Of a stretch of DNA of 64,000 bases, positions 39,325-60,592 are shown piece by piece (position 1 is the stretch's first letter; each line of letters starts with the position of its first letter). A program made the position numbers and the translations under genes. The stretch covers positions 124,001 to 188,000 of IMG/VR virus record IMGVR_UViG_3300015261_000002; one strand, given 5' to 3'. Origin of the DNA: a virus. Under the pieces are notes generated by a model. The model was given only the letters and a program-made list of their open reading frames with translations, searched no databases and had not been told where the DNA came from.

Positions 39325-40023
39325 TTACTTCCAGCGAACAGGGGCAACAAGACCGTCTACAAACTGGAGGATCAGCAGATTGGAAATGCCATCCTTCAAC
39401 TGACAGACAACCTCTGCCTCGGCGAAGTCTTCTGCCGACAGCGACATCTTGAACCCCAACGAGTTTACAAACGTGGAGGCCTTTTCTGCCAGGTCATCGG
39501 GCACGCGTTCTTCTGGTGCATCCGCCGCTTCGAAGATTTTACCCGCCAGCGCCAGACGCACACGCTGTTCTTCGAGATCGACCGCAATGCATTCCTTGGA
39601 ACGCTCAGGAGCATCTTTGTTCTTGACGGTAAAGATCAGGACGCCCGTCAGGCTGATGCTCGATTCCAACATCGGAACCGACACCTGGTACTGGGCTTTA
39701 CTACCGAACTCGACCACGGCACCTTCAACGTCGTAGTCCACCTTATCCAACAGGTGAAGGTCGTACGCGTCAGCGAGTTCCTGGATAACAAGGTTCAGTG
39801 GATCACCCTCACGCGCCGATACTTCTGGCGCACGACGGACCATGACTTGCAAGAGGTTACCCTTGTTCATCTTGGCCTTTTGGGTCTGACCATCTTTCTC
39901 AACGAAAAAGACTGCGGCAGATTCCGACTCCGATTCTGCACGGAGCACTGAGTAACCCTGAGGGAGCTGCTTCTTGAGTCTTTCAAGAAACACTGGGTGG
40001 ACGTTTTCCAAAGCCATTGCCAT
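39325..40023 (-). CDS. Hypothetical virion-associated protein (232 aa)
   Basis: ATG at 40023 shares one base with the preceding stop (TAATG). Acidic, alpha/beta (SVPMLESSISLTGVLIFTVK; SKECIAVDLEEQRVRLALAG). No TM or processing site of the inner-head type. Coupled to the 475-aa inner-head gene, so it may be its chaperone or partner; not demonstrated. Confidence 0.5.
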   Translation of the reverse strand: MAMALENVHPVFLERLKKQLPQGYSVLRAESESESAAVFFVEKDGQTQKAKMNKGNLLQVMVRRAPEVSAREGDPLNLVIQELADAYDLHLLDKVDYDVEGAVVEFGSKAQYQVSVPMLESSISLTGVLIFTVKNKDAPERSKECIAVDLEEQRVRLALAGKIFEAADAPEERVPDDLAEKASTFVNSLGFKMSLSAEDFAEAEVVCQLKDGISNLLILQFVDGLVAPVRWK

Positions 40024-41450
40024 TACTCCTTCTTAGCTTTTTCGTCAGGTTTGTCAGCAGCTTCGTTGGGGAAGATCTTGCTGTTGATACCGGCAGCGGC
40101 TTTGCGGATCCCACTGACCAGTTTCTTGTGAGCAGTAACCTTTTCCTTAAGCCCCTTGAGACTGTCTTTGGCAGCAGCGATCTTTTCCTGGGTCGACTTC
40201 CGGGTGGTGGCAACAACTTCCTTGTTGGCCTCGTCTTTACCCGAAACATTACTGGCTGCGGTTTTCAGCTCAGCAAGTTTCTGTTGAGCAAGGTTCATCG
40301 CCTCACCGAGTGCAGCACCGTAACCGCTCTGCTTGTTCAGCAGACCCAACAGCTTGTCGAGTGCAGTGGCTGCATCTGCCTTACTGTTAAGACCGCCTAC
40401 GATGGCACTGAATGCACCAGAAGGATCGGATTCAGCCGCCAGCTTAACCAGGCCTGCTTTAGCCACCGAGTTGATTTGATCACCCGTAGTCGCCTTGGCA
40501 GCAGCCAGGTCTTTCTTGTTGGCCTCAGCTGCATCAACCGTGGCTTTATTCGTATCCTTTTCATCGGACGAAGTGAACCACTCCTTAATAGCTTTGAAAG
40601 ACTCTGAGATCGTTTCCCAGGCCTTTGTAGCCATTTCCTTGATACCATCCAGGATTGCGCCTTCAGTACCCTCTACAGCGCTCATACGAGCGTTGCGCGC
40701 ACTGGCTACGCCAATGAGGTAGTTCGACGCAAAGGTGTTCTGGCCGTTCAGGTAATCTTCCATACCCTGGAGGAGTTGCAGCGGGTGATCGAACTTGCAA
40801 CCGCAGTCACAATCATCGTTCCGTTGGCAGTCTTCCGGTTCGTCGAAATCAACCACCGGGGCTTCTGGCAGATCTTCCAACTGGGAAGGGGCAAACTCTT
40901 CTGCACCCATTACCATACCGAGACGGCTGGTCACAAACACATCGACGATGTTCAGCACCCGTTCCGCGTACTCCATTTGGCGGATGTTTGCGTTCATGCA
41001 TTCGATGTTTGGTTGTTCATGGCCTTCGTAGATCTCCATGAAGTAGCGAAGACCTTTGTGAGCGAACTCGATCCAGTCATTGACGGCGGCACCGCTCAGG
41101 TGGTCAGAGTTCTTGTTACCGAGCGCGCAGACCTGCATGGCCACATTACGCTCTGGATTACGACCGCCATTCTGGAGGTCAGCCAGCAGTTCGCCGAGGT
41201 ATTGATTGACGAGGGTATTGACAAGCAACTCACTCGCATCGTAATACGCCAGGCGGCTTTCAATAGCGGACACAATGGAGCACATCCGCTCTTTGACACG
41301 GTCGGTATCCGTCGCTTCACCCTCGAACACATAATCGAGTCCGATGGAGCGCAGGAGGTCAACCATCACCGGGTTATTCTCGGCGGTCAGTTTACCAGCT
41401 CTGCCGGTCAGCATGAGGCCAACCAACCCCAATTCAAAGTACAAATTCAT
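40023..41450 (-). CDS. Inner-head (processed internal) protein with long propeptide (475 aa)
   Basis: Start at ATG 41450 (GGAGAAGGGA just upstream); a longer frame to 41555 lacks a site. Processing-type sites are GAE|E at 184 and, with the family pattern, GTE|G at 263. The second is followed by ILDGIKEMATKAWETISESF and KAIKEWF, the amphipathic aromatic helix shared with sister proteins. The mature part (264-475) is Lys/Ala-rich and helical, with a basic C-terminus (KPDEKAKKE). The propeptide is unusually long and holds a Cys cluster (CQRNDDCDCGC, 208-218) plus nearby His222. phiKZ inner-body proteins pack in the capsid as a protein core and many are ejected with DNA; that role is inferred. 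Confidence 0.7.
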   Translation of the reverse strand: MNLYFELGLVGLMLTGRAGKLTAENNPVMVDLLRSIGLDYVFEGEATDTDRVKERMCSIVSAIESRLAYYDASELLVNTLVNQYLGELLADLQNGGRNPERNVAMQVCALGNKNSDHLSGAAVNDWIEFAHKGLRYFMEIYEGHEQPNIECMNANIRQMEYAERVLNIVDVFVTSRLGMVMGAEEFAPSQLEDLPEAPVVDFDEPEDCQRNDDCDCGCKFDHPLQLLQGMEDYLNGQNTFASNYLIGVASARNARMSAVEGTEGAILDGIKEMATKAWETISESFKAIKEWFTSSDEKDTNKATVDAAEANKKDLAAAKATTGDQINSVAKAGLVKLAAESDPSGAFSAIVGGLNSKADAATALDKLLGLLNKQSGYGAALGEAMNLAQQKLAELKTAASNVSGKDEANKEVVATTRKSTQEKIAAAKDSLKGLKEKVTAHKKLVSGIRKAAAGINSKIFPNEAADKPDEKAKKE

Positions 41451-41460
41451 TCCCTTCTCC

Positions 41461-41946
41461 TCACAAATACTTGATGGCCACGGTACCGCGGTAGTAGGTG
41501 GCACGGCGCGCAGTGACGTACAGGTAACCATCACTGGTCCCCAATTCCACTTCAAAGCGTCCCAGGTCGCTCAACCCCACCAGCCGCATCCAATTGAAGA
41601 ACAGCTGACTCACCTCATCGCCAGGCTCAGCCTGATCGGCGTCAGTCAGTGTAATGATGGGTTCTTCGACACAACCATCTACCAGGCCTTCGAGGGGCAG
41701 GAGGTCACCTTGCTCAGGCTCACCAAAGGTAATGCCGCTGATATCCTGAGGGATACCTTTGAAGAGTTCCCCCAGGTCTACCTTTTCGATCATCAGGCCG
41801 GCGCCTACGGTGCCTTGTTCAACGTAGGTAAAGATGTTGTCACTCACAGAACGACCAACGCCAAAGCGTGGGTTCAATCCATCAATACCCTGTTGCTCCA
41901 TGGCTTTGGCAACCAACAAAGTTTTGTTAAAGCAATTCAAGCGCAT
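41461..41946 (-). CDS. Hypothetical protein (161 aa)
   Basis: ATG at 41946 with AAAGGG about 9 nt upstream. Acidic, beta-rich (GRFEVELGTSDGYLYVTARR), ending ATYYRGTVAIKYL. No processing site. It lies between two inner-head genes with 6-10 bp spacing, so it is in the same operon. Function unknown. Confidence 0.5.
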   Translation of the reverse strand: MRLNCFNKTLLVAKAMEQQGIDGLNPRFGVGRSVSDNIFTYVEQGTVGAGLMIEKVDLGELFKGIPQDISGITFGEPEQGDLLPLEGLVDGCVEEPIITLTDADQAEPGDEVSQLFFNWMRLVGLSDLGRFEVELGTSDGYLYVTARRATYYRGTVAIKYL

Positions 41947-41952
41947 AATGGA

Positions 41953-43008
41953 TTACCCTTTGACGTCGATGCTGCTCGACACAATGCTGGACGCGGTGTT
42001 GTAGACCTTGAACACGAGAGTCTCCAAGAGCTTGATACCCGCCATGCCATTGCGAATGATCTCTTCCAGGCTGTGGGCAATCGCTTTAGCAGCGGCCTGA
42101 TCTTCAGCCTCGGCTTTCTTCGAGAACGCCAGACTGGTATTGAGGCCCTTGATAAAGACCTTTTCCAGCTCTACCGATTTCGTGATCATGCCCTGGAACT
42201 TGGTGTTCATTGTGTCCAGGCTTTTGGCAACCGAACGGGTGGTGGTTTCGCTGCTAATAAAGCCAGCGTTCTTGTCGGATTCCAGCAGATCAGGATCGGC
42301 CTTCAGCGACAGCTTACCGTGCGATGTGATCGACACAGTTGTACCGCCGATATAAGGAGCAGGGTCCTTACCAAAGATCTTGATCAGCGCATCGTGGTGC
42401 TCTTTAAAGAGCTTTTCCATGGCGTCCTTGGTATGGCTCAGCTGCTTGCCAGTAAACAGGGCTTCAGCCTTACGAGCGGTATCACCCACTTCCTTGATGT
42501 ACTCTTCGACCTTACCGGTTGCAGCAGTCCAGTCTGCAATGGCTTTGGTCATCCAATCCAGGTTAGCCGGGATCTTGGCCTTGCTGGCCCACAGGTTCAT
42601 GTAACCCTGGGGATAATGCGTGAAGTGTTTCCTGACCCCGTTCTTATCCAGCTTAGCGATCAGGTCTTTGTTCTTGCGTGCAGCCACTTCTTTCTTGCCG
42701 GTGAAGAAACTGAACACCCACTTGAAGAAGTTCTTTACAGCGGTGATAAGCGAAGACACCATATCACCAATCCAGCTCATGAACCCTTCGGTGCCTTCAA
42801 CACTGTCGAGGTTCTTTTGGCGGGGGATATGGGAAAAGACGTACTGGTAATAGAGACACTCATTACCGGAGACTTTGTCGTATTCGTCAGACAAGTCATC
42901 GATCTTGTCGTCTGGAGCATCCACAACGCTTTCAGGATTCTCGGCGTTGTAGAGTGCTTCAACTGTTGGGGTATTGATAAAACGTCGAGCAAGCACTGGT
43001 TGCGTCAT
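41953..43008 (-). CDS. Inner-head processed protein (351 aa)
   Basis: Start at ATG 43008 with AGGT about 10 nt upstream; a codon at 43080 would need the leader. Processing site VEGTE|G at Glu74 is followed by FMSWIGDMVSSLITAVKNFF and a very aromatic stretch (KWVFSFFTG), then Lys-rich helices to the end. The propeptide (1-74) is acidic. This is the clearest case of the shared module described for the inner-head family: cleavage, about 15 residues, then aromatic amphipathic helix. Expected inside the capsid as part of the inner body and possibly delivered to the cell. Confidence 0.7.
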   Translation of the reverse strand: MTQPVLARRFINTPTVEALYNAENPESVVDAPDDKIDDLSDEYDKVSGNECLYYQYVFSHIPRQKNLDSVEGTEGFMSWIGDMVSSLITAVKNFFKWVFSFFTGKKEVAARKNKDLIAKLDKNGVRKHFTHYPQGYMNLWASKAKIPANLDWMTKAIADWTAATGKVEEYIKEVGDTARKAEALFTGKQLSHTKDAMEKLFKEHHDALIKIFGKDPAPYIGGTTVSITSHGKLSLKADPDLLESDKNAGFISSETTTRSVAKSLDTMNTKFQGMITKSVELEKVFIKGLNTSLAFSKKAEAEDQAAAKAIAHSLEEIIRNGMAGIKLLETLVFKVYNTASSIVSSSIDVKG

Positions 43009-43084
43009 GGTAAAAGTACCTGTTAAAAAGGATATGTAGCAAAACCTATAGCATTCCTCAAAAAACCATATAGCAGCCATAAGA

Positions 43085-43114
43085 CTACTAAGGGGGATTG
43101 CTCCCCCTTAGTAG
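43085..43114. terminator. Perfect 13-bp hairpin after the 422-aa gene
   Basis: 43085-43097 with 43102-43114, 4-nt loop. No long U-tract on the minus strand. It lies in the 141-bp gap downstream of the strongly biased 422-aa gene; the rest of the gap is AT-rich with TATG words at 43065-43079 that may be promoters. Confidence 0.65.
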
Positions 43115-43149
43115 CTACCTTACGGTGGTACAGCAACCGCTACGTCGAC

Positions 43150-44418
43150 TTAGAAGCCGATGTGAGCAGCAACGCAGTCCAGCGTAGCGCCAGCGGCGTT
43201 GACGGCCACTTTGGTCACGTTGGTGGCCATGCTCGAAGTCGAGCTGTAAACAGCCTTGACCAGGTTGACCTGACCGTTGACTTCAGCCGACTTGTCGGCG
43301 TCGCCAGCTTTGATCGAGTTCAGGGAACCGATCACGCGATCACGCTCAGCAGCGCTGAAAGCCTTGGCCACTTTGGTGTTGCGCAGGAACGCGCCGACGC
43401 CACGGACTTCGGAGATCGCTTTCAGCAGGCCAGCCTTGTCGGTTTTGGCCTTGACTTCGCCGGTGGTCAGCTTCTTGGCTTCCGGATCCTTCATCACAAC
43501 CATTTTCAGGGAGCGAGCAGCGGCAGCGGCTTCGGCCATGGTTTTGATTTCGGCATCGCTGTACGAAACCTGGATGCGGATACCGTTCATCACGCCGATC
43601 AGGACGTCATGGGAACCAGCCTTCTTCTCGTTGTACTTGCCGGCCGCCTTGGCGTCGGTTTTGACAGCGGAGATCAGACCGGTGTAAGCCGACTTGAAGT
43701 CTTCCAGGCTGATGCCGGAAACGTTTTTGCCCAGCTCGGTCAGCTTGGCGATCGCGCCTTGGGTGGCTTCGAAGCCTGCGGATTTCACAGTGCCCAGGCC
43801 GCCTTTGGCGTAGTCGACGTAGATGTTCCAGCCGCCCAGCTTGACCATCTCTTTCAGCTTGGCGCCGTCTTCCAGGCGCTTCTTCAGGGTGTCGCAACGG
43901 CGCTCGAGGCCGGCGGCCTTGTCGAAGATCGACACGAAGAAACCGATGACGGTGTTGAAGATGTGCTTGATGAACTCGACGGCTTTCTTGCCGTACTCCT
44001 TGATGGAGTCCATGATGCTTTCCATGCCCTCGCGAGCATGCATCTGAGCGGTCGACGCGTCGGTGATGGATTCAGCACCCATGCGCTCGCCCTGGATGTT
44101 GGCACCCAGTTTGTTGCCGAGTTTCACGCCACGGTTGTAGAGGTGGGCGAAAGCCAGGCCGCTGAAGTTGCCGGAGTTGATCAGGGATTCCATGCCTTCG
44201 ACGACTTCGGTCGCTTCTTCGACGGCTTCTTCCAGATCGTCCATCTTGTCGACCAGCGCTTCAACTTGCTGCGACTGCTCTTCGATGGCCACGGTGACTT
44301 CGGCGATTTCGGTTTTCACCGCTTCTTCGACGGCTTCAACGACTGCTTCACCACCGGCGCCTTGCAGCTCCAGTTCTTCAGCGCCAGTGTACATGTTCAG
44401 AAGATCAATACCGGACAT
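43150..44418 (-). CDS. Abundant inner-head processed protein (422 aa)
   Basis: ATG at 44418 with AAAGGA about 10 nt upstream. Candidate processing sites: GAE|S at Glu116 and GME|S at Glu133. After the second comes IMDSIKEYGKKAVEFIKHIF and NTVIGFFVSIF, the family helix. The propeptide is acidic with a long coiled-coil-like run of Glu/Val/Ala (25-75). Codons are strongly C/G-ending, more than neighbours and similar to the capsid gene, suggesting one of the most abundant virion proteins. The C-terminal half is Ala/Lys-rich and helical. Inner body component by analogy with phiKZ. Confidence 0.7.
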   Translation of the reverse strand: MSGIDLLNMYTGAEELELQGAGGEAVVEAVEEAVKTEIAEVTVAIEEQSQQVEALVDKMDDLEEAVEEATEVVEGMESLINSGNFSGLAFAHLYNRGVKLGNKLGANIQGERMGAESITDASTAQMHAREGMESIMDSIKEYGKKAVEFIKHIFNTVIGFFVSIFDKAAGLERRCDTLKKRLEDGAKLKEMVKLGGWNIYVDYAKGGLGTVKSAGFEATQGAIAKLTELGKNVSGISLEDFKSAYTGLISAVKTDAKAAGKYNEKKAGSHDVLIGVMNGIRIQVSYSDAEIKTMAEAAAAARSLKMVVMKDPEAKKLTTGEVKAKTDKAGLLKAISEVRGVGAFLRNTKVAKAFSAAERDRVIGSLNSIKAGDADKSAEVNGQVNLVKAVYSSTSSMATNVTKVAVNAAGATLDCVAAHIGF

Positions 44419-44472
44419 AGCTATGTATCCTTTTTCGTTAACGAAGGAAAATTGTGTGTTTAATTAAACGGT

Positions 44473-45486
44473 TTACGCGAAAACACCAAGCACACCATGA
44501 ATGTACCTGTCGGTGTAGCTGACCACCCGAGGAGTGAATCCGCTATAGAATGCCAACGCATTCGCCTCACCAGAGAGAATCTTCTCACCCTCTGCCATGG
44601 CACTTGAACTAACCTTGTCCAACTTACTCAGGTTAGCGTCAACGGTTTTCACCATATCCGACCAGCTCTTGATAAAGGCCAAGTAGCTGTCGTACGACGA
44701 CTTCAAGCGTTTGTGCATAGAGTTGATCTTGTCCAGCTTGTTCAACAGCGCGTTGACTTCAGACTTGGATAAGGTCGTGGAGGACCCCGCCTCAGCAGGT
44801 GCGTCACCACCTATAACATATTTCGGGTGTTTGCCGTCGCCGTAGACGCATTCCCAGACTTTGCCACCTGGCAGAGTGTCAGAGAACGTCGTGTCGCCTT
44901 TTGAATGCGGCAACTTGAACGGAGGATACTTCAACGCCTCGAACTCCTCCACAATCGCGAAGATGTTCTCAGAGGTTGAAGCACCCTTGAGCTTACGGAC
45001 GACAATCAGCTGCTTGTCCAGGTAACTCAGAATTTCTTTGCTGTGCTTATCCAGTGCATCCAACGTGCTCAGCAGAGTGTCCATATCATGCCCAATATGG
45101 CCAACATCGCCATTCGAGGTGATAAGGGCAATCGTGGTCTTGCTGAGGTTCAGCTCGTGATCTTCGATCTTGCTGAAGCTTTGCGTCAGCTTTTTGATCA
45201 AGGTATCGTTGTCGCTGAAAGCACGGTACAAGCCAGCTCCTGCCGCGCCAAGGGCTTTGCCAAACAGGTCGACAGTCTTACCGCCTACCCACTTGCTGAC
45301 TTCAAAGAGGCCAGCGCCAAGTTCTTTGGCGTTCTCCATAAAGTCTTCATTGCCTTCGACCCGGATCTTCATCCGGTGAGGTTCCGCGAGCAACAGGTTA
45401 CCTGCTTTGTGCAGATCGTTCTGTTCCTCACGGGTCTCCAGATGGTTCTCCAGGCAGGTTTGATATAACCGATGGGTGTTGCTCAT
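44473..45486 (-). CDS. Inner-head processed protein (337 aa)
   Basis: ATG at 45486 with AAGGAGG 6 nt upstream. Processing site VEGNE|D at Glu47 gives a short propeptide. It is followed by FMENAKELGAGLFEVSKWVG and GKTVDLFGKALG, a glycine-rich version of the family helix. The rest is helical with many Lys and Ser (EVNALLNKLDKINSMHKRLK). The site (Asp at P1') is the least typical of the set. Operon member between the 422- and 437-aa genes. Confidence 0.6.
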   Translation of the reverse strand: MSNTHRLYQTCLENHLETREEQNDLHKAGNLLLAEPHRMKIRVEGNEDFMENAKELGAGLFEVSKWVGGKTVDLFGKALGAAGAGLYRAFSDNDTLIKKLTQSFSKIEDHELNLSKTTIALITSNGDVGHIGHDMDTLLSTLDALDKHSKEILSYLDKQLIVVRKLKGASTSENIFAIVEEFEALKYPPFKLPHSKGDTTFSDTLPGGKVWECVYGDGKHPKYVIGGDAPAEAGSSTTLSKSEVNALLNKLDKINSMHKRLKSSYDSYLAFIKSWSDMVKTVDANLSKLDKVSSSAMAEGEKILSGEANALAFYSGFTPRVVSYTDRYIHGVLGVFA

Positions 45487-45497
45487 GTCCAGCCTCC

Positions 45498-47316: not shown

Positions 47317-48190
47317 AGTCGGCCTCGATCTCTGCAATGGTGTGGTCGTTGCGAATGATCTTGTCCTGGTAGATCTCGATACGGCGATCGAGGTCAGGGT
47401 CATTCGTGCCGTTGCGCTTGTTGATCGCCTGGGAGATCTTCATCGCAAAGTACTCGTTGTCACGACGCATCTTCTCGATACGCATGCCCTGAATCTTGCT
47501 CCAGCCCAGACCCCACCAGAACATCGGGTTAACCAGGTGAACACCGAAACCCTTGTTCAGCAGGTCGACTTGCGTCTTGCCGCCGGTGCTTTCCATAACG
47601 TCCAGGGACGTCTGGGTGATTTCGATGTCCGGCAGGTTGTTCATGTTCTTCATGATCAACGACGCGCCGCGCAGCAGGTCAACGGTGAAGTTGTTGTAGA
47701 ACAGCGCAGTGCCGTTGATGAACTTCATGTCGATCGGTTGCAGGTAACGCTCCGGCTCAACACCCTGGTTGTTCATGGTCAACAGTACGTCGTAGATCAT
47801 GCGGGTGTAACGCAGCCAGAAGTTCAGGTACTCGATGACGTTCAGCAGGTTCGCTTGCTTGACGGTCATCAGCTTACCGTCCCACAGGCTTTCCTTGTAG
47901 CTGTTGACCGCTTTGGTCAGCTCGGTGGTCAGTGCATCGAGAGCGCCGAGACCGTGCTTGTTGATACCGACCAGATCGCCACCACGGAAGCCAGCGGAGT
48001 TGACCGCCTTCTTCAGGGAGCGGGTGATGACCCAATGCTCAGCCTGATCGCTCAGGTCGATATCGTTCATCTCGATGTTTTCCAGACCTGCCTTCAGGTC
48101 TTCACCGGCTACCTTGATGCTCAGGATAGCAGACAGGATTTCGTTCTTCTTTACCGCTTTGACTTTCCCGATGTAGGAGAAAATATCCAT
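47309..48190 (-). CDS. Virion-type protein (293 aa)
   Basis: ATG at 48190 overlaps the upstream stop in TGATG; GGAGG lies 6 nt upstream, so ATG is preferred to the GTG just before. Mostly helical with a Trp-rich segment (NPMFWWGLGWSKIQGMRIEK) and a charged C-terminal helix (DRRIEIYQDKIIRNDHTIAE). No TM or processing site. Tight coupling to the 365-aa gene suggests a complex. Function unknown. Confidence 0.5.
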   Translation of the reverse strand: MDIFSYIGKVKAVKKNEILSAILSIKVAGEDLKAGLENIEMNDIDLSDQAEHWVITRSLKKAVNSAGFRGGDLVGINKHGLGALDALTTELTKAVNSYKESLWDGKLMTVKQANLLNVIEYLNFWLRYTRMIYDVLLTMNNQGVEPERYLQPIDMKFINGTALFYNNFTVDLLRGASLIMKNMNNLPDIEITQTSLDVMESTGGKTQVDLLNKGFGVHLVNPMFWWGLGWSKIQGMRIEKMRRDNEYFAMKISQAINKRNGTNDPDLDRRIEIYQDKIIRNDHTIAEIEADYA

Positions 48191-49287
48191 CACATGCCTC
48201 CGTTCAGCAACTTGACCAGGTCCGCCAGGGTGTTGGAGCCCGAATCTTTCTTCGATTTGATGGCGATATCCTTGCGGGTGTAAATTTCCGGCATATCGCT
48301 GCCATGGGTGTAGAAGGTGTAGATACCGCGATCTTCGTTGCAGACCACGATGGTGTTTGCCACCACAGCCTTGAAGATACCTTCACGCGACTTTGGATCA
48401 CGGAAGCGTTTACCGATGTCCAGTTCCAGCTGGGTAGCTGCTTCCTGGGAGATGATGAACGAGTTGGCCATGCTGTTGAAGCTGACCACGCCGGTACGCA
48501 CAGCAGTGAGCTTGTTACCGGTTTCACGACGCAGGGCTTCTTTGTAGTAGCCCGACATCTCTTCGTTCTTGATGTTGAAGCGTTCCTTGATGATGTCCTT
48601 GCCGCTGAGGAACTCAGGGTAGGTGATCTCACGGGTCTTGGCCATGGTCAAGCGAGCAAAGAAGCCCTCTTCGATCTTGGCAGCAGAGAAGGTACGCTTG
48701 AGGTCCTTCGTGGACATCGGCACCGGGATCTGACGGAAGGTCAGTGGGAAGTCGATCTTGCCACCACGTTCGGTGTGCAGGGTAGCGTTAACCACCTTAC
48801 CGATCGCGAGCGGGGTGTACTCTTGCAGGTCGGGCATGGTTTTGCCGCCGACTTGAACGTAGTCCTGCTCGGGGTTTTTCTTTGCTTCGTTCGGGATGTT
48901 GTCGTCGAAAGCTTCGCAGCCTTGGATCGACATCATGCCGGCACGGTTCGGGTTGATGGAACCGATAATGTCCTTGATCTGCACGCCCATCGACACGGTG
49001 CCTTCCAGCGCCAGGTGAGTCAGGGTGGCGACCACGTCACGCATCATGACGATTTGCATGAGGTCGGACATGAATTCCTGGTGCAGAAGGGACTGTTCAA
49101 CGCCGACCATTGGCGCAATGATCGCGCGGTTTGCGCTCTGATGCACCGATGTGGTCGAGACCACATTGTATGAACGTTGAACCTGGCCCGCCACTTTGGC
49201 GGCGGAGTTTATGTCTTTGCTATCGGGATAAAACTTACTTGCAATGTCCAGCAGGTAAGACCCCAGCCCTAATACGTTACCAATCAT
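48190..49287 (-). CDS. Virion-type protein with a GxE site (365 aa)
   Basis: ATG at 49287 with GAAGGT about 8 nt upstream, 33 bp from the divergent plus-strand start. A site SIQGCE|AFDD at Glu125 follows the S/A/G-x-E rule and resembles the capsid and portal sites, but it is not followed by the aromatic helix of the inner-head family. The N-terminal 120 residues are hydrophobic and helical. Coupled to the 293-aa gene. It may be a processed head protein of another class. Confidence 0.5.
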   Translation of the reverse strand: MIGNVLGLGSYLLDIASKFYPDSKDINSAAKVAGQVQRSYNVVSTTSVHQSANRAIIAPMVGVEQSLLHQEFMSDLMQIVMMRDVVATLTHLALEGTVSMGVQIKDIIGSINPNRAGMMSIQGCEAFDDNIPNEAKKNPEQDYVQVGGKTMPDLQEYTPLAIGKVVNATLHTERGGKIDFPLTFRQIPVPMSTKDLKRTFSAAKIEEGFFARLTMAKTREITYPEFLSGKDIIKERFNIKNEEMSGYYKEALRRETGNKLTAVRTGVVSFNSMANSFIISQEAATQLELDIGKRFRDPKSREGIFKAVVANTIVVCNEDRGIYTFYTHGSDMPEIYTRKDIAIKSKKDSGSNTLADLVKLLNGGM

Positions 49288-49320
49288 TTTTAATTACCTT
49301 CATTAATGGGAGCCAGAGAA

Positions 49321-53328: not shown

Positions 53329-53345
53329 AGCAGCTATAAACCATG

Positions 53346-53379
53346 CCTACCCTACCTCCCGCAAAGGAGGTAGGGTAGG
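53346..53379. terminator. Bidirectional terminator, perfect 14-bp hairpin
   Basis: 53346-53359 with 53366-53379, loop CGCAAA, in the convergent junction. It is preceded by TAAAGCAGCTATAAACC, which also precedes the terminator at 59435. Confidence 0.8.
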
Positions 53380-53395
53380 TTATGGCCGGTACAAC

Positions 53396-54154
53396 TTATT
53401 CCGCAGGCTGTTCCATCGGAGTCCCTGGGTACTTCAGGTTCAGGTATTCCGCAAACATGAACGGCAGCTTCAACTTGTTGCACATGTCGCTCGTGCGCCA
53501 AGAGAAGTCCTTCAGACTGTAACCCGTCAACTTCAGGTCAGGCTTGAAGGTACCTTCCAGATAGCTGGAGTGCGCCTTAGCCATGATGTCCTTGAACTCG
53601 TTAACAAAGAGGTAGTCCCCGTTGATGACGATATCCGGAACACGGTTGAGTTGATCCCACGAGGTGAGCGAACCGTCTTTCAACTTCTGCTCAGCTTCGT
53701 AGAAGTAGTCGCCGGTGTACGCGGTGTATTTCAACACCTCGCAACGGAACTCGTTCAGACGTTCCTGGCTCTCCACCGTGAAGTCAGCTGCGAGCAGCTC
53801 TTTCATTGTGGTGTTGACGACCTGGTCGATGTAGGCGTAAATGACCTCGAAGTACTCGCGGGTTTCTTTCAGCTCGCCCAGTTGCTTGCGTGCTTCTTCA
53901 ACGGGCAGGCCTGCATACAGCACAACAGACTTGTTCGTTTCAGGAAAGCATTCGGACAACTGAACAATCAGCGAGTTAGCCCGAGAGCTACTACCCCAGA
54001 TACCGCGGATGATCTTTGTAGCGACCGGCAGTGGAAGACCTTCGTCTTCCATCGCGGTGATCAGGGATTCGAGTTCGTCGATGTACGTCTGAGTCGTGAC
54101 ATCAGCCACACCCTTCAGTTTGACGATCTCTTCCCACATGGCTGCTCGGCTCAT
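53396..54154 (-). CDS. Hypothetical protein (252 aa)
   Basis: ATG at 54154 overlaps the preceding inner-head gene's stop (ATGA). Helical, charged (EEARKQLGELKETREYFEVI), with a DWRT-like patch (FSWRTSDMCNKLKLP). No processing site or TM. As translation is coupled to the 504-aa inner-head gene, it may be its assembly partner. Function unknown. Confidence 0.5.
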   Translation of the reverse strand: MSRAAMWEEIVKLKGVADVTTQTYIDELESLITAMEDEGLPLPVATKIIRGIWGSSSRANSLIVQLSECFPETNKSVVLYAGLPVEEARKQLGELKETREYFEVIYAYIDQVVNTTMKELLAADFTVESQERLNEFRCEVLKYTAYTGDYFYEAEQKLKDGSLTSWDQLNRVPDIVINGDYLFVNEFKDIMAKAHSSYLEGTFKPDLKLTGYSLKDFSWRTSDMCNKLKLPFMFAEYLNLKYPGTPMEQPAE

Positions 54155-55665
54155 AGCAATTTACCTGCTCCGATTTGCTTGGTGAAGTTGTTGAGGTTGG
54201 TCTTAACCCCACCAATATCACTTTGGATGGCGAAGTTCACGTTGGCGGTCAACTTCTCGCCAAACGTTTTTGCATCGGCATCCTTGATGAACACACGACC
54301 TTCGATGATCGGGCTCAGACCGCGAGAGCGTGCCTCAGCAACGATCTTCTCGACCGCCTCGATATCGCCGACCACACCACTGTAGTAGTAGGCATGGATG
54401 CGACCGTACCATTCAACCAGGCTGACGATCTGCCGTTCAACGCGGAGAACTTCCTTGTTGATGGAGTAGCACATCTGGCTGAAGTTACGGCAAGCGACGC
54501 TCAACATCTGGTAGTCGGATAGCAGTTGCGGTGCGTTGTAGTAGGTCGCCATCGCGCTGATCTTTTCAGAGTCAGACTTGTCGATGATCTCGCCTAGTGC
54601 TTTCCAGTTGACTTTCGAGATATCAACCTCGTCGTCCACCAGTTCCTGGTAACGCACGTTCAGACGCTGGATCTCGAGCAGGGTAGCGGACACATCCACA
54701 CCGGCTACAGTCGAAGCACTTGCCACAACTTCGGTCTTCAGGCGGTTCTGTACCTGGTCAAACTTGTTGGCCAGTTCTTCGTTCGAGAAGTCAAGGCTAT
54801 ACAGATCCTTGTACAGTTTGCTCATGAGACCAGAGATCTCTTCAACGCCAAAGGTCAGCAGCGTTTCGTTCATTGCCTTGGTGATAACAATCACTTCGGT
54901 AGACGATTCACCGGCGACGTGGTTACCCGACTTGTGACGCACACGAGAACGGTTGTACTCGTCGAGGATCACTTTCTTCAGACGCTTCTGAGCGATCGTA
55001 ACCTTGTCAGTGGCCTGCTTGATCTTCACGTTCAGCTGCTGGATCAACGGAACACTGGCCGCCAGCTTCTTCACTTGATCGATATCGCTATCGAGCTTGT
55101 TCTTCAGCAGGTGGATCTGTGCAACACGATCCTTGTCCTTTGGCAGGCTGCCGAGGAACTTCTCGACGTTGTACTCAGCGACGTTGAAGCCAAAGCTGAT
55201 CAGCGTGTCTTCGAACTCTTTCTTCAGATCGCCGAGGCTGTCATTGATGGCTTTGGTGATCCGTTCCGACTTGCGGAAACCGAAGATCCCTTTAACCATG
55301 TCGACAACCCAGTCGATGGCCATGCGGATGTAACGAATGATGGTTTCGATGAAGTCTTTGAAACCGGTGTAGACCGCACTGAAGAAGCCTTCAGCGCCCA
55401 TGCGAGCGTTGCGCTCCGAAGGGAACGGGTCATAGTTCTCGACGCCTTTGAGTTTGAGGTGGCGGGCAACCTGCTTGGAGAAACGACCGAGGCTCAGTTG
55501 TTCGGAACCCATCACCATAACGGTGGCGTTGTTCTGTTCACTGACCTGGTAGTATTCAGTCAGGTCGATACGTTGTTTGTTTTCGCCAGGCTGATACGAA
55601 TCAACCGGCTCCGCATTACCGTACTGCTGGTAATCGTCAATCTTGGTAGTGGCGGAGTCACTCAC
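54151..55665 (-). CDS. Inner-head processed protein (504 aa)
   Basis: Start is GTG at 55665 with GGAGG 6 nt upstream; no ATG lies near. Processing site RMGAE|G at Glu92 is followed by FFSAVYTGFKDFIETIIRYI and RMAIDWVVDMVKGIFGF, the longest version of the family helix. The propeptide has charged and Gln/Asn-rich parts with a second possible GSE site (55). The mature part is long and helical with coiled-coil character (LGDLKKEFEDTLISFGFNVA). Probable inner-body protein; one of the larger ones. Confidence 0.7.
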   Translation of the reverse strand: MSDSATTKIDDYQQYGNAEPVDSYQPGENKQRIDLTEYYQVSEQNNATVMVMGSEQLSLGRFSKQVARHLKLKGVENYDPFPSERNARMGAEGFFSAVYTGFKDFIETIIRYIRMAIDWVVDMVKGIFGFRKSERITKAINDSLGDLKKEFEDTLISFGFNVAEYNVEKFLGSLPKDKDRVAQIHLLKNKLDSDIDQVKKLAASVPLIQQLNVKIKQATDKVTIAQKRLKKVILDEYNRSRVRHKSGNHVAGESSTEVIVITKAMNETLLTFGVEEISGLMSKLYKDLYSLDFSNEELANKFDQVQNRLKTEVVASASTVAGVDVSATLLEIQRLNVRYQELVDDEVDISKVNWKALGEIIDKSDSEKISAMATYYNAPQLLSDYQMLSVACRNFSQMCYSINKEVLRVERQIVSLVEWYGRIHAYYYSGVVGDIEAVEKIVAEARSRGLSPIIEGRVFIKDADAKTFGEKLTANVNFAIQSDIGGVKTNLNNFTKQIGAGKLL

Positions 55666-56053
55666 GGCCGGCCTCCAGTTCTTTTACCAGGTAGTCGGTC
55701 AGAACGGAGCAGGCCGGCAGCTCGCCAACGTCCACGTCATTCACGATGGTGGTGAACTCTTTCTTGCACGGCAGGGTGCCGGTGTTCATCATCACACCGT
55801 TCAGCATGCCGATGCGCACTTGAGCGGTCTTGTGGATCAGCGGGGCTGGGATAGGGGATACCTTGTTCCACTTGTCGAGCATGGCCCAGGCTTTCTCATC
55901 CATCTCGGTGGTCCAACCGCCCAGACGGTACGAACGACGGATCAGGGCACGGGCGAACGGTTCGGCCAGCAGCTTGCTCTGCTCGATGGGACAGGTGATA
56001 CCTTTTTCGGTCAGGGCTTTCTTGAATTCAACAACATGGATCAAATGCGACAT
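55658..56053 (-). CDS. Hypothetical protein (131 aa)
   Basis: ATG at 56053 with AAGGA 7 nt upstream. Overlaps the GTG-start gene by 8 nt. Soluble, basic middle (ARALIRRSYRLGGW), acidic end (VKELEAGRE), two Cys (ITCPIEQ; LPCKKE; also LPACSV). No motif recognised. Confidence 0.5.
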   Translation of the reverse strand: MSHLIHVVEFKKALTEKGITCPIEQSKLLAEPFARALIRRSYRLGGWTTEMDEKAWAMLDKWNKVSPIPAPLIHKTAQVRIGMLNGVMMNTGTLPCKKEFTTIVNDVDVGELPACSVLTDYLVKELEAGRE

Positions 56054-56080
56054 GGTAGAGTTCCTTGCAAGGGGAGAGGG

Positions 56081-57484
56081 TTAGAATTCGTACGTCTTGT
56101 TTTCTTCTGGACTCTTGTCCGTTCCGTCACGACGCGCTTTCAGGTTGGCCAGTTTTACAGCAATGGTGTTCACCTCGTGGTTGGCGACCACAGAAGTGTA
56201 ATGTTCAACTTCTTGGGCTTTAAAGTCAGACTGACTGAACACCCAACCCATGAAGCGGTGGATCACGGTACTCTCATACCAAGGACGCAGGTCTTTCGCA
56301 TGGTTCAGCAGTTGCTGCACTTCATCTGCCAGGGCATTCTTTTCAGAGGCCGGCATCTTCGTGTCCTCTTTCAGCTTTTGGATCAGCTGACGGACAGCAT
56401 CTTCAAACCGACGGTGGTCAGCGTTATAGACGCCCGAGTAACCTTTGCTGAAGTAGTTCAGAACAAAGATAAACATATAGAAGACCATGGCCATGAACAA
56501 AGCACCGGCGACGCCGATAGAGATCGTTACCGAGAGCCAGGCAGGCAATGCAATGATCGTGGTCACTGCGGCAATCATCAGGCTGTTGACAACCGTTTGG
56601 ATGCAACCCTGGTCAGTCAGGATGCCGATCGCTGCGATAATGCCCTTGTCACAGCCCATGCGGATGGCGTACATGTCAGCCACAACTTCGGACGACATCG
56701 ACTCAACCCCTACCGACAAACTGCGTCGCATATTACGTTGGGCGATTAATTTATCGAAGTAGAGGAAGACAGTCTTGTCATCCTGTTCTTGGGCGAGCAT
56801 TTGCAGCTCACCTTGTTTGGCCGCTGGAACATCCAGCAGAGAAGCAACATCCTTGAGCACTACAACGCGATCTGAGACGTCTTTAGCCTCGCGATAGTAG
56901 AGCAGGGCGCTCTTCAGGTAGAGGTTGTCAGACGCGACTGTGAGCAGCATCATGCAACCGCTGAACACATGACCGAGTTCGTGGGCGATCGCACCTGCCA
57001 GGATACCCGGCAACGGTACGCCAAACTTCTTCACCTTATCGGCTGGGAAGGTAGCGTTCAGGTCAGGGTTGATCTGGAAGGTCACGGGTACGGTTTGGAA
57101 GGAACCGAGGACCTTACCACTGGTGTAATCGATGCCACCTTTAAACACCTTGTCCTTGTTCTGGGTAAACCAGCGGTACAGGGTGGTTTGAGTTGGCTTC
57201 AGCAGGTCGTCTACCAGTGCGTTGTTCAGCACATGGTTGGGGGAGAAGTAACCGGCGTCAACAGACAGGTTTCCGCTCTTGGAGAACTTCATGTCCACGT
57301 TCTTGAAACCCGTGAACTCCTCGATGAGGTCTTTGATGCCTGGGATGGCTTCTTTACTCAGAACACCGTCGGGACCAATCTGACTTTCGAGGTACAGCGA
57401 CAGCTTGCGGTAGAAGTCAGTGGACTGGAAGTTAATGAACTCCAACCCTCCGACGGGTCGTTTCAAAAAATCCATCGAGATCAT
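56081..57484 (-). CDS. Membrane-anchored gluzincin-type metallopeptidase (HELGH)
   Basis: ATG at 57484 with GGAG 9 nt upstream. Residues 168-172 are H-E-L-G-H in AIAHELGHVFSGC, the zinc-binding HExxH helix; Glu169 would be the catalytic base. About 95 residues later E266-V-V-A-D270 matches the ExxAD third-ligand motif of M48-type gluzincins. Two TM segments follow (about 298-318 and 320-345, IISIGVAGALFMAMVFYMF-like), then a cytoplasmic or periplasmic charged tail. This order (catalytic domain first, then TMs) differs from typical HtpX. It lies between inner-head genes behind its own GCATTTTATG promoter motif. It could process a virion or host envelope protein, or open the membrane during entry. 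It is not the prohead protease, which in phiKZ is a serine enzyme. Confidence 0.7.
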   Translation of the reverse strand: MISMDFLKRPVGGLEFINFQSTDFYRKLSLYLESQIGPDGVLSKEAIPGIKDLIEEFTGFKNVDMKFSKSGNLSVDAGYFSPNHVLNNALVDDLLKPTQTTLYRWFTQNKDKVFKGGIDYTSGKVLGSFQTVPVTFQINPDLNATFPADKVKKFGVPLPGILAGAIAHELGHVFSGCMMLLTVASDNLYLKSALLYYREAKDVSDRVVVLKDVASLLDVPAAKQGELQMLAQEQDDKTVFLYFDKLIAQRNMRRSLSVGVESMSSEVVADMYAIRMGCDKGIIAAIGILTDQGCIQTVVNSLMIAAVTTIIALPAWLSVTISIGVAGALFMAMVFYMFIFVLNYFSKGYSGVYNADHRRFEDAVRQLIQKLKEDTKMPASEKNALADEVQQLLNHAKDLRPWYESTVIHRFMGWVFSQSDFKAQEVEHYTSVVANHEVNTIAVKLANLKARRDGTDKSPEENKTYEF

Positions 57485-57506
57485 GCACCTGTACTCCTCA
57501 AAGATA

Positions 57507-57514
57507 TTTATTAC
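57507..57514 (+). promoter_or_regulatory. Possible early promoter box TTTATTAC for DNA polymerase
   Basis: Seven of eight bases match TATATTAC, 54 nt before the polymerase ATG, the same distance as the 24090 box from its gene. Lies in the 83-bp divergent gap. Confidence 0.4.
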
Positions 57515-57533
57515 TGGGACGCCATTGGTATAG

Positions 57534-57544
57534 CGCTAAAAGCG
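57534..57544 (-). promoter_or_regulatory. Short hairpin downstream of GCATTTTATG
   Basis: CGCT/AGCG with a 3-nt loop, two bases past the promoter motif, so near the 5' end of the metallopeptidase mRNA. Small; compare the hairpins after the capsid and 209-aa gene motifs. Confidence 0.25.
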
Positions 57545-57546
57545 GG

Positions 57547-57556
57547 CATAAAATGC
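57547..57556 (-). promoter_or_regulatory. Late promoter motif GCATTTTATG for metallopeptidase
   Basis: Minus strand reads GCATTTTATG, 62 nt before the ATG at 57484. Same motif as at 31846 and 61323. Confidence 0.5.
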
Positions 57557-57567
57557 AGGATAAACCC

Positions 57568-59427
57568 ATGACACAAAATCTTTCACCAATTATCGCGAAA
57601 GTCTGCAAACATGCTCATTATTCAGAGCATCGCTGGGACAAAACCAAAGACCTCCTCACAGCGAAGATCACGAACATCCATGAGGACGGTACTCGGTCGA
57701 CAACCTTTAAGTCCTACGAGAATTACAAGCAGCCGTTCTGGATCATTAAGGAACAGCATCGCAAGTTCAACCAACCAAAGGACTACATCGAAGAACGGTA
57801 CGTCAGGGAATACCGTTGCAATCGTCGTCAGATTCCATTTGAAGTCAAGAAGCAGTTGTTTGGGGCAGCTGATCGCAGTGCTTCGATTTATGACATCAAG
57901 TCGGGCAAAGGTATTCAATACGTGTTTGGTCTTGACCAGACGCCTGCGGTGCATTTGAAGCAACAGTTCTTTAAACGGTATGCGGAATACCAGGAAAAAG
58001 AAAAGTACACCATTGCGGCATTCGACGTTGAAGCCGACATGGAAGCGATTGGTGAAGTGAAACCGATCATGATGGCTTCGGTCACTATGAAGGACAAAGC
58101 TTACTTCGCCGGGTGCCGGGGTTGGTATCAGTCTCGGCAGGACAAGATTGACCCGAAGGTTCGTTTAACTGACTTTGCGATTTTAGCGGAGTTAAAAGCG
58201 GCCGAGAAGAAGTACCTGCAAGAACACTTGGATCGTCGAGGTTGCACGATTGAGTATGAGTTGTTCGATACACCGGGTCAGGTAGCCTTTGCTTGTATTC
58301 AGAAGTTCCACGAGTGGGAACCAGACTGGGTACTGAGCTGGAACGCCGCTTACGATATGGAAGCGTGTGAGCGTGCATTGCGGTCCGAGGGTTATAACCT
58401 GGCCGACGTGTATTGCGATCCTCGTGTTCCAAAAGAGTATCGGATGTATGAACTTAACCTGGGTCGTACACACAAGGTTAAAGAGAACGGCGACCGTACT
58501 CCTCTCGAACCTCAAGAGAAGTTCCCAACCGTTCGTTGTGTAGCAACATGGCAGTGGGCTGATGCCATGTCGGGTTATGCCATCAAGCGATTCTCTTCGG
58601 GTAAGCTCGAGAGTTACTCGCTGGAGGCGACTGCGCAACGGGAGAAGGTCAAGGGTAAGCTGTACACCGAAGAAGGCGCTGATAAGCTCCCAGGGTCTCC
58701 TCAGTGGCATCGATACATGCAGAAGCATTATCCGTATCTGTATTCGATGTACAACATTGGCGATAACTTCCCAATCGAAGAGATCAACGAAACCACGCTG
58801 GACTTTGTACTGTCGATTCCAATGCTGCTGCGTTATTCGGAGTATTTCAACTTCGTTTCGCAACCACGTTTGATTGCAGATACCTTGTCCTTTATTGCGC
58901 GTGAGCATGGTTACGTTTGGGGCAGCACTCCTGCTAAACGGGATAAAGTCTTTACTGACCGACTGCCGACTCTCGACAACTGGATTGCACTTCTCGATAC
59001 TGAGAAGAACGCAGACATGGGTCGGGCAATCTTTATCGGTCTGGATGACGTTATCAGTGCGGGTCGTGGTCTTACTGACGACCTTGACGTTGAAGGGGCG
59101 TACCCAACCGGTACACTGGCTTCTAACGCAGCGAACAAAACCACGCAGATGGAGGTGTATGCCATTCAGGGTGCTAATGACATGAAGTTCCGGGAGATTG
59201 CCGTGAACTATGCCAGCAGTACTCAAGCGAATGCCATGGGTCTGAGTCACGCACTGTTCCGTTTCCCACAAGCCGACAAACTGCAATCTGAGTTTGAGAA
59301 AGGTTTGGAAGAACTGGGTTATGCAGACATGTTGAAGCAACTGCGTGAAAGTGCAGAGAAAGCAAAAGCAGAACGAGAAGCACGTCAAGCCAAAGTCCTA
59401 CCAGAAGTACTGAAAGAAGCGGCGTAA
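57568..59427 (+). CDS. Family-B DNA polymerase N-terminal half: exonuclease and palm motif A
   Basis: Start set at ATG 57568 (AGGA 8 nt upstream). Exo I is FDVEAD with Asp153/Glu155; Exo II is SWNAAYDME with Asn259, Tyr262, Asp263; Exo III Y-x3-D is YNIGD with Tyr395/Asp399. This gives an intact 3'-5' proofreading exonuclease. Palm motif A appears as DLDVEGAYPT at Asp507 (compare DxxSLYPS). The 619-aa protein then ends in a charged helix; I see neither motif B (KxxxNSxYG) nor motif C (DTD). So the catalytic palm is incomplete, and a second polypeptide should supply it, unless these motifs are very divergent. Family-B enzymes are usually 800-1000 aa. Alone in its plus-strand unit behind an early-type box. 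Confidence 0.7.
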   Translation: MTQNLSPIIAKVCKHAHYSEHRWDKTKDLLTAKITNIHEDGTRSTTFKSYENYKQPFWIIKEQHRKFNQPKDYIEERYVREYRCNRRQIPFEVKKQLFGAADRSASIYDIKSGKGIQYVFGLDQTPAVHLKQQFFKRYAEYQEKEKYTIAAFDVEADMEAIGEVKPIMMASVTMKDKAYFAGCRGWYQSRQDKIDPKVRLTDFAILAELKAAEKKYLQEHLDRRGCTIEYELFDTPGQVAFACIQKFHEWEPDWVLSWNAAYDMEACERALRSEGYNLADVYCDPRVPKEYRMYELNLGRTHKVKENGDRTPLEPQEKFPTVRCVATWQWADAMSGYAIKRFSSGKLESYSLEATAQREKVKGKLYTEEGADKLPGSPQWHRYMQKHYPYLYSMYNIGDNFPIEEINETTLDFVLSIPMLLRYSEYFNFVSQPRLIADTLSFIAREHGYVWGSTPAKRDKVFTDRLPTLDNWIALLDTEKNADMGRAIFIGLDDVISAGRGLTDDLDVEGAYPTGTLASNAANKTTQMEVYAIQGANDMKFREIAVNYASSTQANAMGLSHALFRFPQADKLQSEFEKGLEELGYADMLKQLRESAEKAKAEREARQAKVLPEVLKEAA

Positions 59428-59434
59428 AGCAGCT

Positions 59435-59477
59435 ATAAACCCTCCTACTCCCTTTGTCGGGGAGTAGGAGGGTTTAT
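59435..59477. terminator. Bidirectional terminator, 18-bp hairpin
   Basis: 59435-59452 with 59460-59477, 7-nt loop. Convergent junction after the polymerase gene; preceded by the same TAAAGCAGCTATAAACC as at 53325-53341. Confidence 0.8.
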
Positions 59478-59512
59478 TCACGATCGATGCTCAGAACGCC
59501 TTACAGACGTTA

Positions 59513-60592
59513 TTAAGCAGCGATACCAAAGACCTTGTTCAGGGCATTGGACGCTTCGGTCACGCGGGTGTAGTTGGCTTCGATCAGCTTGGACGCTTTA
59601 ACGCCAGTACCAACGATCACACGCAGAGCGGCGATGTCTTTCTGGAGTTCAGTTTTGTCTTTCGCTTCTTTGGCCTTCTTCATCTTCGCTTCAGCGCTGG
59701 CCAGCAGTTTCTCGATGGCCGACTTCTTGTTCTTGAATTCGTCGGAGAACGCCTTCAGGGACACGATGTTGGTGGCGCAGTCTTTGCTGAACTGGATGGC
59801 AGCAGCAGGCTCGGTGATGGAGGTGGCTTTTTCCAGCTTGGCCAGGAACTGAGCGTCCCGGGTCATGAACTTGGTAACCAGGCCAGCCATGTCGATGGCG
59901 TTGTCGGTGAAGTCGGTGTTACCCGACAGGTGACCGGCGGCTTGCTTTTCCTTGTCGCTGCCCTGGGAAGTGGCGAGGGTCAGGAATGCTTTCTTCGCCT
60001 TCACAGCCGCAGCCACAACGTTGGCCAGAGTTGCTTGAGCCTTCTTGTTCATCTTGCCCATTTCTTTCAGGGCAGCCTTGACGGCGTCGCGCTTCTCTTT
60101 CAGGCCCTTCTTCTTGGCGTCAGCGATTTCTTTCGCAGTTGCTTCGGAAACGTTGCCGGCCATCGCGTTCAGTTGCTTGTCGGCGGTGGCTTCGTCCTGG
60201 GTACCCGAAACAGCGGCTTGGAGTTCAGCAGCGTTTTCGTTGCACGCTTCTTTGGCCACTTCAGCGTCTTTGGCGCTGTCACGGTTGAAGAAGAAGTCCC
60301 AGATGGACTTGAAGGTTTTAGCGATGTAGTCATACACCGCTTTGAAGCCGTTGCCGATGGCGGAGAACACGCCTTCGTTACCGGTCACTTGAGCGCCGGT
60401 AATAATGCCAGCAGCACTGAGCACGCCTTGAGCATAACGCTGAGCGTCAGTCAGGGAGATCGATTCGGTACCCGCAACGTCCAGCTGTTCAGCCGTATCG
60501 TTGAGGGCGTCGAACATGATCTCGACGTGCGGTACGTCGGGGAGACCAAAGCCGTCGCCATCAGGTTGGTAGGAGCCTTCTACGTATTCCAT
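59513..60592 (-). CDS. Abundant inner-head processed protein (359 aa)
   Basis: ATG at 60592 with AAGGA 8 nt upstream. Two processing sites: GTE|S at 43 and GNE|G at 73; the second is followed by VFSAIGNGFKAVYDYIAKTF and KSIWDFFF, the family helix. The mature part is Ala/Lys-rich and helical, as in DNA- or core-binding internal proteins. Codons are strongly C/G-ending. It is separated from the other inner-head genes by the polymerase and metallopeptidase block, so the family is scattered. Confidence 0.7.
   Translation of the reverse strand: MEYVEGSYQPDGDGFGLPDVPHVEIMFDALNDTAEQLDVAGTESISLTDAQRYAQGVLSAAGIITGAQVTGNEGVFSAIGNGFKAVYDYIAKTFKSIWDFFFNRDSAKDAEVAKEACNENAAELQAAVSGTQDEATADKQLNAMAGNVSEATAKEIADAKKKGLKEKRDAVKAALKEMGKMNKKAQATLANVVAAAVKAKKAFLTLATSQGSDKEKQAAGHLSGNTDFTDNAIDMAGLVTKFMTRDAQFLAKLEKATSITEPAAAIQFSKDCATNIVSLKAFSDEFKNKKSAIEKLLASAEAKMKKAKEAKDKTELQKDIAALRVIVGTGVKASKLIEANYTRVTEASNALNKVFGIAA

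Follow-up and report, generated by a model that had tools for sequence, protein, structure and literature searches.

Several otherwise unrelated inner-head proteins of an EL/RisingSun-like jumbo phage appear to share one N-terminal element, called here the cassette. The genes concerned lie in a 64,000-nucleotide window (bases 124,001-188,000 of the 224,747-bp IMG/VR phage record IMGVR_UViG_3300015261_000002), in which a sequence-only reading had grouped seven minus-strand genes, here g1 to g7, by a common propeptide, cleavage site and aromatic helix. We think it somewhat likelier right than wrong that the seven are inner-head (ejection) proteins and that five of them carry the cassette ahead of unrelated mature domains, with a sixth copy lying outside the window. 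As proposed, the cassette would comprise an acidic variable leader, a G-x-E cut, a spacer helix of 17-37 residues (with the motif LTxAQxYxxGVL in g7-like members), a second G-x-E cut and an amphipathic helix. This last helix would start G/S-(hydrophobic) and, in several members, finish with an aromatic patch ahead of Lys (FKxIWDFFFGKK-like).

All seven genes are present at the lengths first given (Table 1), three of them counted from internal ATGs, and every Glu residue listed as a cleavage site was found. A near-DNA search of phage records returned no near-identical phage DNA in the phage collection; the protein relatives, from Pseudomonas phage EL and the Erwinia phages RisingSun and Joad, place the genome among EL/RisingSun-like jumbo phages. 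The order of g1-g5 and a gene of 161 amino acids (aa) is collinear with EL gp61-gp66 and RisingSun gp66-gp73. The homologue set of each family, drawn from EL, RisingSun and IMG/VR contigs, numbers 13-21 non-redundant sequences.

In these sets the proposed Glu and the Gly at -2 are both invariant in every family: g1 (15/15), g2 (16/16), g3 (16/16), g4 (16/16), g5 (13/13), g6 (21/21) and g7 (14/14). The motif, initially written [GTACN]-x-E, is actually G-x-E, with T, A, M, N or C as the middle residue. A scan of all positions yielded the fully conserved GxE given in Table 1, as well as GxE-184 of g1, conserved at 93%; the proposed site is the last fully conserved GxE in each of the seven families, with none downstream. 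A second invariant GxE lies 17-37 residues upstream of it in six of the seven genes, g4 being the exception with a single site. Residues 116 and 133 of g3 and 96 and 116 of g5, earlier offered as alternative sites, are all invariant and belong to this pairing, which should free a conserved spacer peptide. GxE density per residue is 0.016-0.020 in the leaders versus 0.003-0.004 in the mature parts and background. The propeptide is clearly acidic in five genes and weakly so in g4 and g6 (charges for g1-g7 of -24, -9, -21, -2, -10, -4 and -12). The Gly/Ser/Ala-aromatic start was likewise borne out in part: G, S or A follows the cut in six families and D in g4, and the next residue is aromatic only in some.

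The major capsid protein is the archetypal prohead-protease substrate, and its GxE sites serve as an independent check on the cut motif. Among the other window genes with homologues, clusters of conserved GxE occur only in this protein; a helicase-like gene, a 575-aa gene and two antisense frames each have a single conserved GxE, in small homologue sets. A conserved x-x-E ending an N-terminal leader is a feature of prohead-protease substrates, and judging from the alignments all seven families and the major capsid protein have it, marking them as predicted substrates. Because GxE is invariant in seven families and the capsid protein, G-x-E makes a good lineage-specific cut signal; the corresponding motif is A-x-E in SPN3US (PMC10052503) and S/A/G-x-E in phiKZ (PMC10449902).

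A likely further prohead-protease substrate is encoded at 48190-49287 (minus strand), where GxE-125 aligns with the EL, RisingSun and phiKp_32 homologues. This protein occupies the genomic place of SPN3US gp50 / phiKZ gp89 and has no amphipathic helix after GxE-125; SPN3US gp50, its positional counterpart, is processed.

Whether the element is homologous from gene to gene was addressed with hhalign, comparing the region from -35 to +55 around the site (~90 residues) with the remainder of each protein. In the site region g1, g2, g3 and g7 are mutually related (P 91-99%) and g6 is linked to g2 (P 89%) and g7 (P 93%), whereas no pair is related in the part after the cassette (<7%). Hidden Markov models (HMMs) built without the tested family, with reversed decoys as controls, recovered g1 (E 9e-12), g2 (2e-10), g3 (3e-8) and g7 (1e-12), where the best of the decoys reached 0.002-0.04. 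On these profiles, one homologous cassette is present in g1, g2, g3 and g7, and g6 probably carries it too. The claim of the same module in all seven proteins therefore stands as true homology for five (g6 probably), with one copy outside the window added, and finds no support in the sequences of g4 and g5. PHROG profiles of unknown function cross-match several of the seven proteins exactly at the cassette.

Beyond the cassette, three of the proteins belong to PF12699 (phiKZ_IP; gathering score 27 bits), which matches g3 (135.1 bits), g5 (129.1 bits) and g4 (32.0 bits) over most of their length and does not match g1, g2, g6 or g7. NCBIfam gave nothing meaningful for the seven. The cassette is the only part that g1, g2 and g7 (g6 probably) share with g3. 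That the proteins are unlike in most of their length is thus correct for the mature parts of the cassette carriers, which are unrelated, but not for g3, g4 and g5, which PF12699 joins. As a member of both sets, g3 bridges the cassette carriers (g1, g2, g3, g7 and perhaps g6) and the phiKZ_IP proteins. The last GxE of g3, g4 and g5 falls at a similar PF12699 profile position, about 90-94, a figure obtained by arithmetic from the match ranges rather than from an alignment.

Several remote matches were set aside. The cassette profile found designed helical proteins and other unconvincing matches in the PDB. Foldseek returned confident matches for g7 only to related jumbo-phage proteins; ClyA-like and flagellin-like matches were discarded, as neither g2 nor g7 had a significant PDB match. 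The likeness of g7 to 'PVC protein gp65' (PDB 11fg, E 0.012) is a weak match of helix character and was not used. In 11fg/11mk it covers residues 126-269, an aromatic amphipathic stretch, and spans the cassette helix and beyond.

A 50-position profile of the cassette finds six copies in this genome, in g1, g2, g3, g6, g7 and a g7 paralogue outside the window (62,243-63,148 of the record). Across 15 related genomes, counting this one, it finds 97 copies, 5-9 to a genome, within open frames of about 310-550 aa. Of these, 26 copies that were fetched without having contributed to the profile formed a held-out set. GxE stands at the helix start in 26/26, a column that is part of the profile; another GxE lies 10-33 residues upstream, outside the profile, again in 26/26, where the background chance of GxE per 33-residue window is 9%. 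Since the held-out copies are related to one another, no exact probability is claimed for this count. Most of their spacers read G(T/S/N)E-(G/S)LTxAQxYxxGVLxAxG...V-GNE, and the LTxAQxY-type motif is found in 22/26. Homologous cassettes occur in proteins of Klebsiella phiKp_32, Aeromonas AerS_266, Vibrio Aphrodite1 and Shewanella FishSpeaker, and phiKZ offers a weak match in gp93 (1e-4), with gp162 and gp163 marginal.

Several related genomes also hold remote extra cassette copies. In Klebsiella phage phiKp_32 (L071:8674-9632, minus strand), a 166-aa cassette protein is followed by an overlapping 153-aa frame; the former is either a stand-alone cassette or half of a split g7-like gene, and its neighbour lacks clear similarity to g7.

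The helix after the site was scored against 40-mers of the window as background. The top hydrophobic moment (18-mer) in the first 40 residues after the site is 0.60-0.67 in the five carriers g1, g2, g3, g6 and g7, a value reached by 0.4-1.1% of background; the corresponding share is 1.9% for g5 and 14% for g4. Such a helix is missing in the window's major capsid protein (0.20), that of SPN3US (0.42), SPN3US gp45 (0.47) and gp50 (0.33) and the 48190 protein (0.36), and is therefore not general to protease substrates; among those compared it is confined to inner-head proteins. In the AlphaFold model of g2 the disordered leader stops exactly at the site (boundary residues 73-75), where a long helix begins (73-123). 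For g7 the leader and helix are of low confidence (predicted local distance difference test, pLDDT, about 50-69) and the domain from about residue 106 is well predicted, a model consistent with a helix that is not packed on its own domain. Across g7-like members (13 sequences, identity down to 23%), F94, K95, I97, W98 and F102 are invariant while the remainder of g7 has no invariant column; conservation in these proteins is highest in the spacer and helix.

From relatives we infer prohead-protease cleavage, packaging and ejection. Leader and spacer would bring the precursor into the prohead core, where the protease would cut the GxE ladder and clear both, leaving a mature protein that begins with a free amphipathic helix. 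After ejection the helix would most likely aid association with either the inner membrane or the early-infection vesicle, a conjecture that we consider plausible if somewhat short of even, and that we rank slightly ahead of a role in inner-body packing, with a bipartite packaging tag third; the three may overlap. A membrane role is favoured by the interface scores of g2 and g7 and by analogy with SPN3US gp47 and phiKZ gp86. SPN3US gp47 is essential, is cut before SWANAGKVGLVVLIMTAIIKIIGWIIS and is inferred to be ejected; a transmembrane helix is predicted in its mature N-terminus, for which the authors speculated on contact with the host membrane, and a prohead-targeting role is ascribed to its leader (PMC5694885). 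In phiKZ gp86 processing occurs at SQE-122, and EL gp54 is placed at the same locus as phiKZ gp86 and SPN3US gp47 (PMC5694885); downstream of SQE-122, phiKZ gp86 reads AVMATIINTLKTWFEKLMELFAKLMRWISDFKK, with a moment of 0.76. By mass spectrometry (MS), SPN3US gp53 matures to GWKETLKDLFER... and gp54 to SLWDDIK..., each after multiple leader cuts (PMC10052503), and their mature ends have moments of 0.74 and 0.75. In RisingSun, MS of the lysate detected gp59, gp66, gp68, gp71, gp72 and gp73, with gp68 the second-ranked protein (PMC6034870); these are the relatives of g6, g5, g3, g7 (two: gp71 and gp72) and g1. Relatives of g1, g3, g5 and g6 were reported to be found in EL as well (PMC6034870), and phiKZ gp93, gp94, gp95 and gp97 are injected (PMC10449902). 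Docking of the helix to the virion RNA polymerase, also suggested by the sequence-only reading, finds no support.

A number of results weigh against this account of the seven proteins. Reversed profiles, which keep helical periodicity, at times reach P 80-90% in hhalign (2/42 above 80%); their best score is 33.4, compared with 36-98 for the accepted pairs. The leave-one-out HMM gives g6 an E of 0.01 versus 0.0019 for a decoy, and g4 (E 0.5-8) and g5 (4-40 or no match) are without a detectable cassette by every test. The Wimley-White interface sum is exceptional only for g2 (reached by 1.1% of background) and g7 (3.8%), and is unremarkable in g1, g3, g4, g5 and g6 and in SPN3US gp53/gp54. An aromatic face conserved by identity suits a protein partner. 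The likeness of the SPN3US and phiKZ proteins to the cassette is one of character and hardly of sequence: no HMM or hhalign link from SPN3US gp47, gp53 or gp54 to the seven proteins was significant. Measured virion N-termini exist for the SPN3US and phiKZ relatives, and the literature searched yielded none for this phage, EL or RisingSun. A search that used a single phiKZ-type query and a single Pfam family, run without a positive control and from which no absence is claimed, gave no chimallin match in this genome, so that what is said here of the early-infection vesicle comes from relatives (PMC12908238, PMC13282480).

Another role for the helix, a real possibility though a minority one, would be to let the different cargo proteins dock or form coiled coils with one another, so that they assemble jointly in the inner body and remain associated once the leader is gone, with no part at the membrane. 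The invariant aromatic residues of g7-like members speak for such packing, as do the presence of several cassette proteins per genome, the unremarkable interface scores of g1, g5 and SPN3US gp53/gp54, and the mutual interactions of inner-body proteins in phiKZ (PMC10449902). It is harder to reconcile with the transmembrane helix predicted at the equivalent place in SPN3US gp47 (PMC5694885) and with the g7 helix, modelled at low confidence outside the well-predicted domain.

It is unlikely, in our estimate, that spacer and post-site helix together form a bipartite packaging tag, a single capsid-targeting signal read by the prohead core as a long version of that in T4, which the cut would destroy to leave a stub of little role. 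The concentration of conservation in the spacer and helix of g7-like proteins would fit, as would the LTxAQxY-type motif of the held-out spacers and the prohead targeting ascribed to the SPN3US gp47 leader (PMC5694885), but g4 and g5 have no cassette though they are homologues of packaged proteins, and post-cut amphipathicity is strong where the spacer sequence is unconserved (SPN3US gp53/54, phiKZ gp86).

Chance or convergence, meaning ordinary amphipathic helices of helical proteins that happen to sit after protease sites, is very improbable overall: such helices are common, reversed profiles sometimes score highly and g4 and g5 fail, yet leave-one-out E values fall as low as 1e-12 and the upstream GxE, absent from the profile, recurs in every held-out copy. 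The outcome that the sequence-only reading had named as fatal, helices unrelated and no better than chance on profile comparison, is contradicted for g1, g2, g3 and g7, and may hold for g4, g5 and partly g6.

Taken furthest, the cassette could be a reusable, protease-armed membrane anchor of EL-like jumbo phages, placed in each genome on 5-9 head-packed proteins, several of which have no other relation; leader and spacer would silence it, capsid maturation would arm it, and after ejection the cargo would be held at the inner membrane or help to build the vesicle. We regard this fuller scheme as doubtful.

A two-site cassette with a conserved released spacer on at least four mature domains without detectable relation is undescribed in Pfam, NCBIfam, PHROGs and the literature searched, where a prior mention is possible. 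Giant-phage heads are loaded with tens of megadaltons of protein; the cassette suggests a portable packaging and maturation tag, and offers a handle on how packed, injected proteins assemble or act at the host membrane. The cassette also supplies a short list of testable peptides in the search for the proteins that make the early-infection vesicle out of host membrane. The last conserved GxE, in turn, gives a rule for predicting mature cargo ends across the lineage.

Table 1. Genes, predicted cuts and cassette parts; coordinates are window positions unless marked otherwise.
Feature	Coordinates	Strand	Description
g1, 475 aa	40023..41450	-	EL gp66 / RisingSun gp73 family; cleavage predicted after GTE-263; GxE-231 also invariant
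g1 spacer, residues 232-263	40662..40757	-	between two invariant GxE
g1 predicted exposed amphipathic helix, residues 264-303	40542..40661	-	GAILDGIKEMATKAWETISESFKAIKEWF...
g2, 351 aa	41953..43008	-	EL gp64 / RisingSun gp69 family; cleavage predicted after GTE-74; GxE-50 also invariant
g2 spacer, residues 51-74	42787..42858	-	between two invariant GxE
g2 predicted exposed amphipathic helix, residues 75-114	42667..42786	-	GFMSWIGDMVSSLITAVKNFFKWVFSFFTGKK...
g3, 422 aa	43150..44418	-	PF12699 internal head protein; EL gp63 / RisingSun gp68; invariant GxE 14, 77, 116, 133
g3 spacer, residues 117-133	44020..44070	-	between last two invariant GxE
g3 predicted exposed amphipathic helix, residues 134-173	43900..44019	-	SIMDSIKEYGKKAVEFIKHIFNTVIGFFVSIF...
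g4, 337 aa	44473..45486	-	divergent PF12699 member; EL gp62 / RisingSun gp67; single invariant GNE-47; weak helix
g5, 437 aa	45498..46811	-	PF12699 member; EL gp61 / RisingSun gp66; invariant GAE-96 and GCE-116; amphipathic segment
g6, 504 aa	54151..55665	-	EL gp54 / RisingSun gp59 family; invariant GSE-55 and GAE-92; position equivalent to phiKZ gp86 and SPN3US gp47
g6 spacer, residues 56-92	55390..55500	-	between two invariant GxE
g6 predicted exposed amphipathic helix, residues 93-132	55270..55389	-	GFFSAVYTGFKDFIETIIRYIRMAIDWVVDMVKGIFGF...
g7, 359 aa	59513..60592	-	cleavage predicted after GNE-73; GxE-43 also invariant
g7 spacer, residues 44-73	60374..60463	-	SISLTDAQRYAQGVLSAAGIITGAQVTGNE
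g7 predicted exposed amphipathic helix, residues 74-113	60254..60373	-	GVFSAIGNGFKAVYDYIAKTFKSIWDFFFNRD...
g7 paralogue	G000:C1:62243-63148	+	outside window, about 120 kb from g7; second g7-like cassette protein
Major capsid protein (PF25620)	29592..31784	-	invariant GxE 36, 52, 102; no amphipathic helix after site

Beside g6, the gene at 56081-57484 (minus strand) encodes a 467-aa protein with hydrophobic segments and HELGH, a HExxH zinc-metallopeptidase-like motif. HExxH is kept in EL gp52, RisingSun gp57, FishSpeaker and SPN3US gp45, the last a head protein known to be processed, and, by position, in phiKZ gp84, which suggests that the product is a head-packaged membrane metallopeptidase.

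Processing and paralogy of inner-head proteins in jumbo phages are already established, as the sequence-only reading had noted for the phiKZ inner body, and a membrane role has been suggested for one such protein. Among the closest known systems is PF12699, which comprises phiKZ gp93/94/95/162/163 and SPN3US paralog family A (gp53/gp54), processed, abundant and internal proteins to which g3, g4 and g5 also belong. The SPN3US mature ends start with G or S, have an aromatic residue within three positions and continue into an amphipathic helix, much as in the cassette; PF12699, however, is one full-length family, whereas the cassette crosses family borders to g1, g2, g7 and probably g6. At the locus of SPN3US gp47, phiKZ gp86 and EL gp54, of which g6 is the EL gp54 orthologue, a processed leader is again followed by a hydrophobic or amphipathic helix. 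The helix of SPN3US gp47 differs in being transmembrane-like, the protein has no detectable similarity to g6 (hhalign <1%), and the literature draws no link from it to other cargo. The internal proteins of T4 (IPI-III and Alt), with capsid-targeting sequences cut by gp21, likewise lose a leader to a related prohead protease and are ejected with the DNA. Their leaders measure 10-20 residues, in contrast to the 47-263 found here, which contain one to four invariant sites and are followed by a conserved element that is kept on the mature protein.

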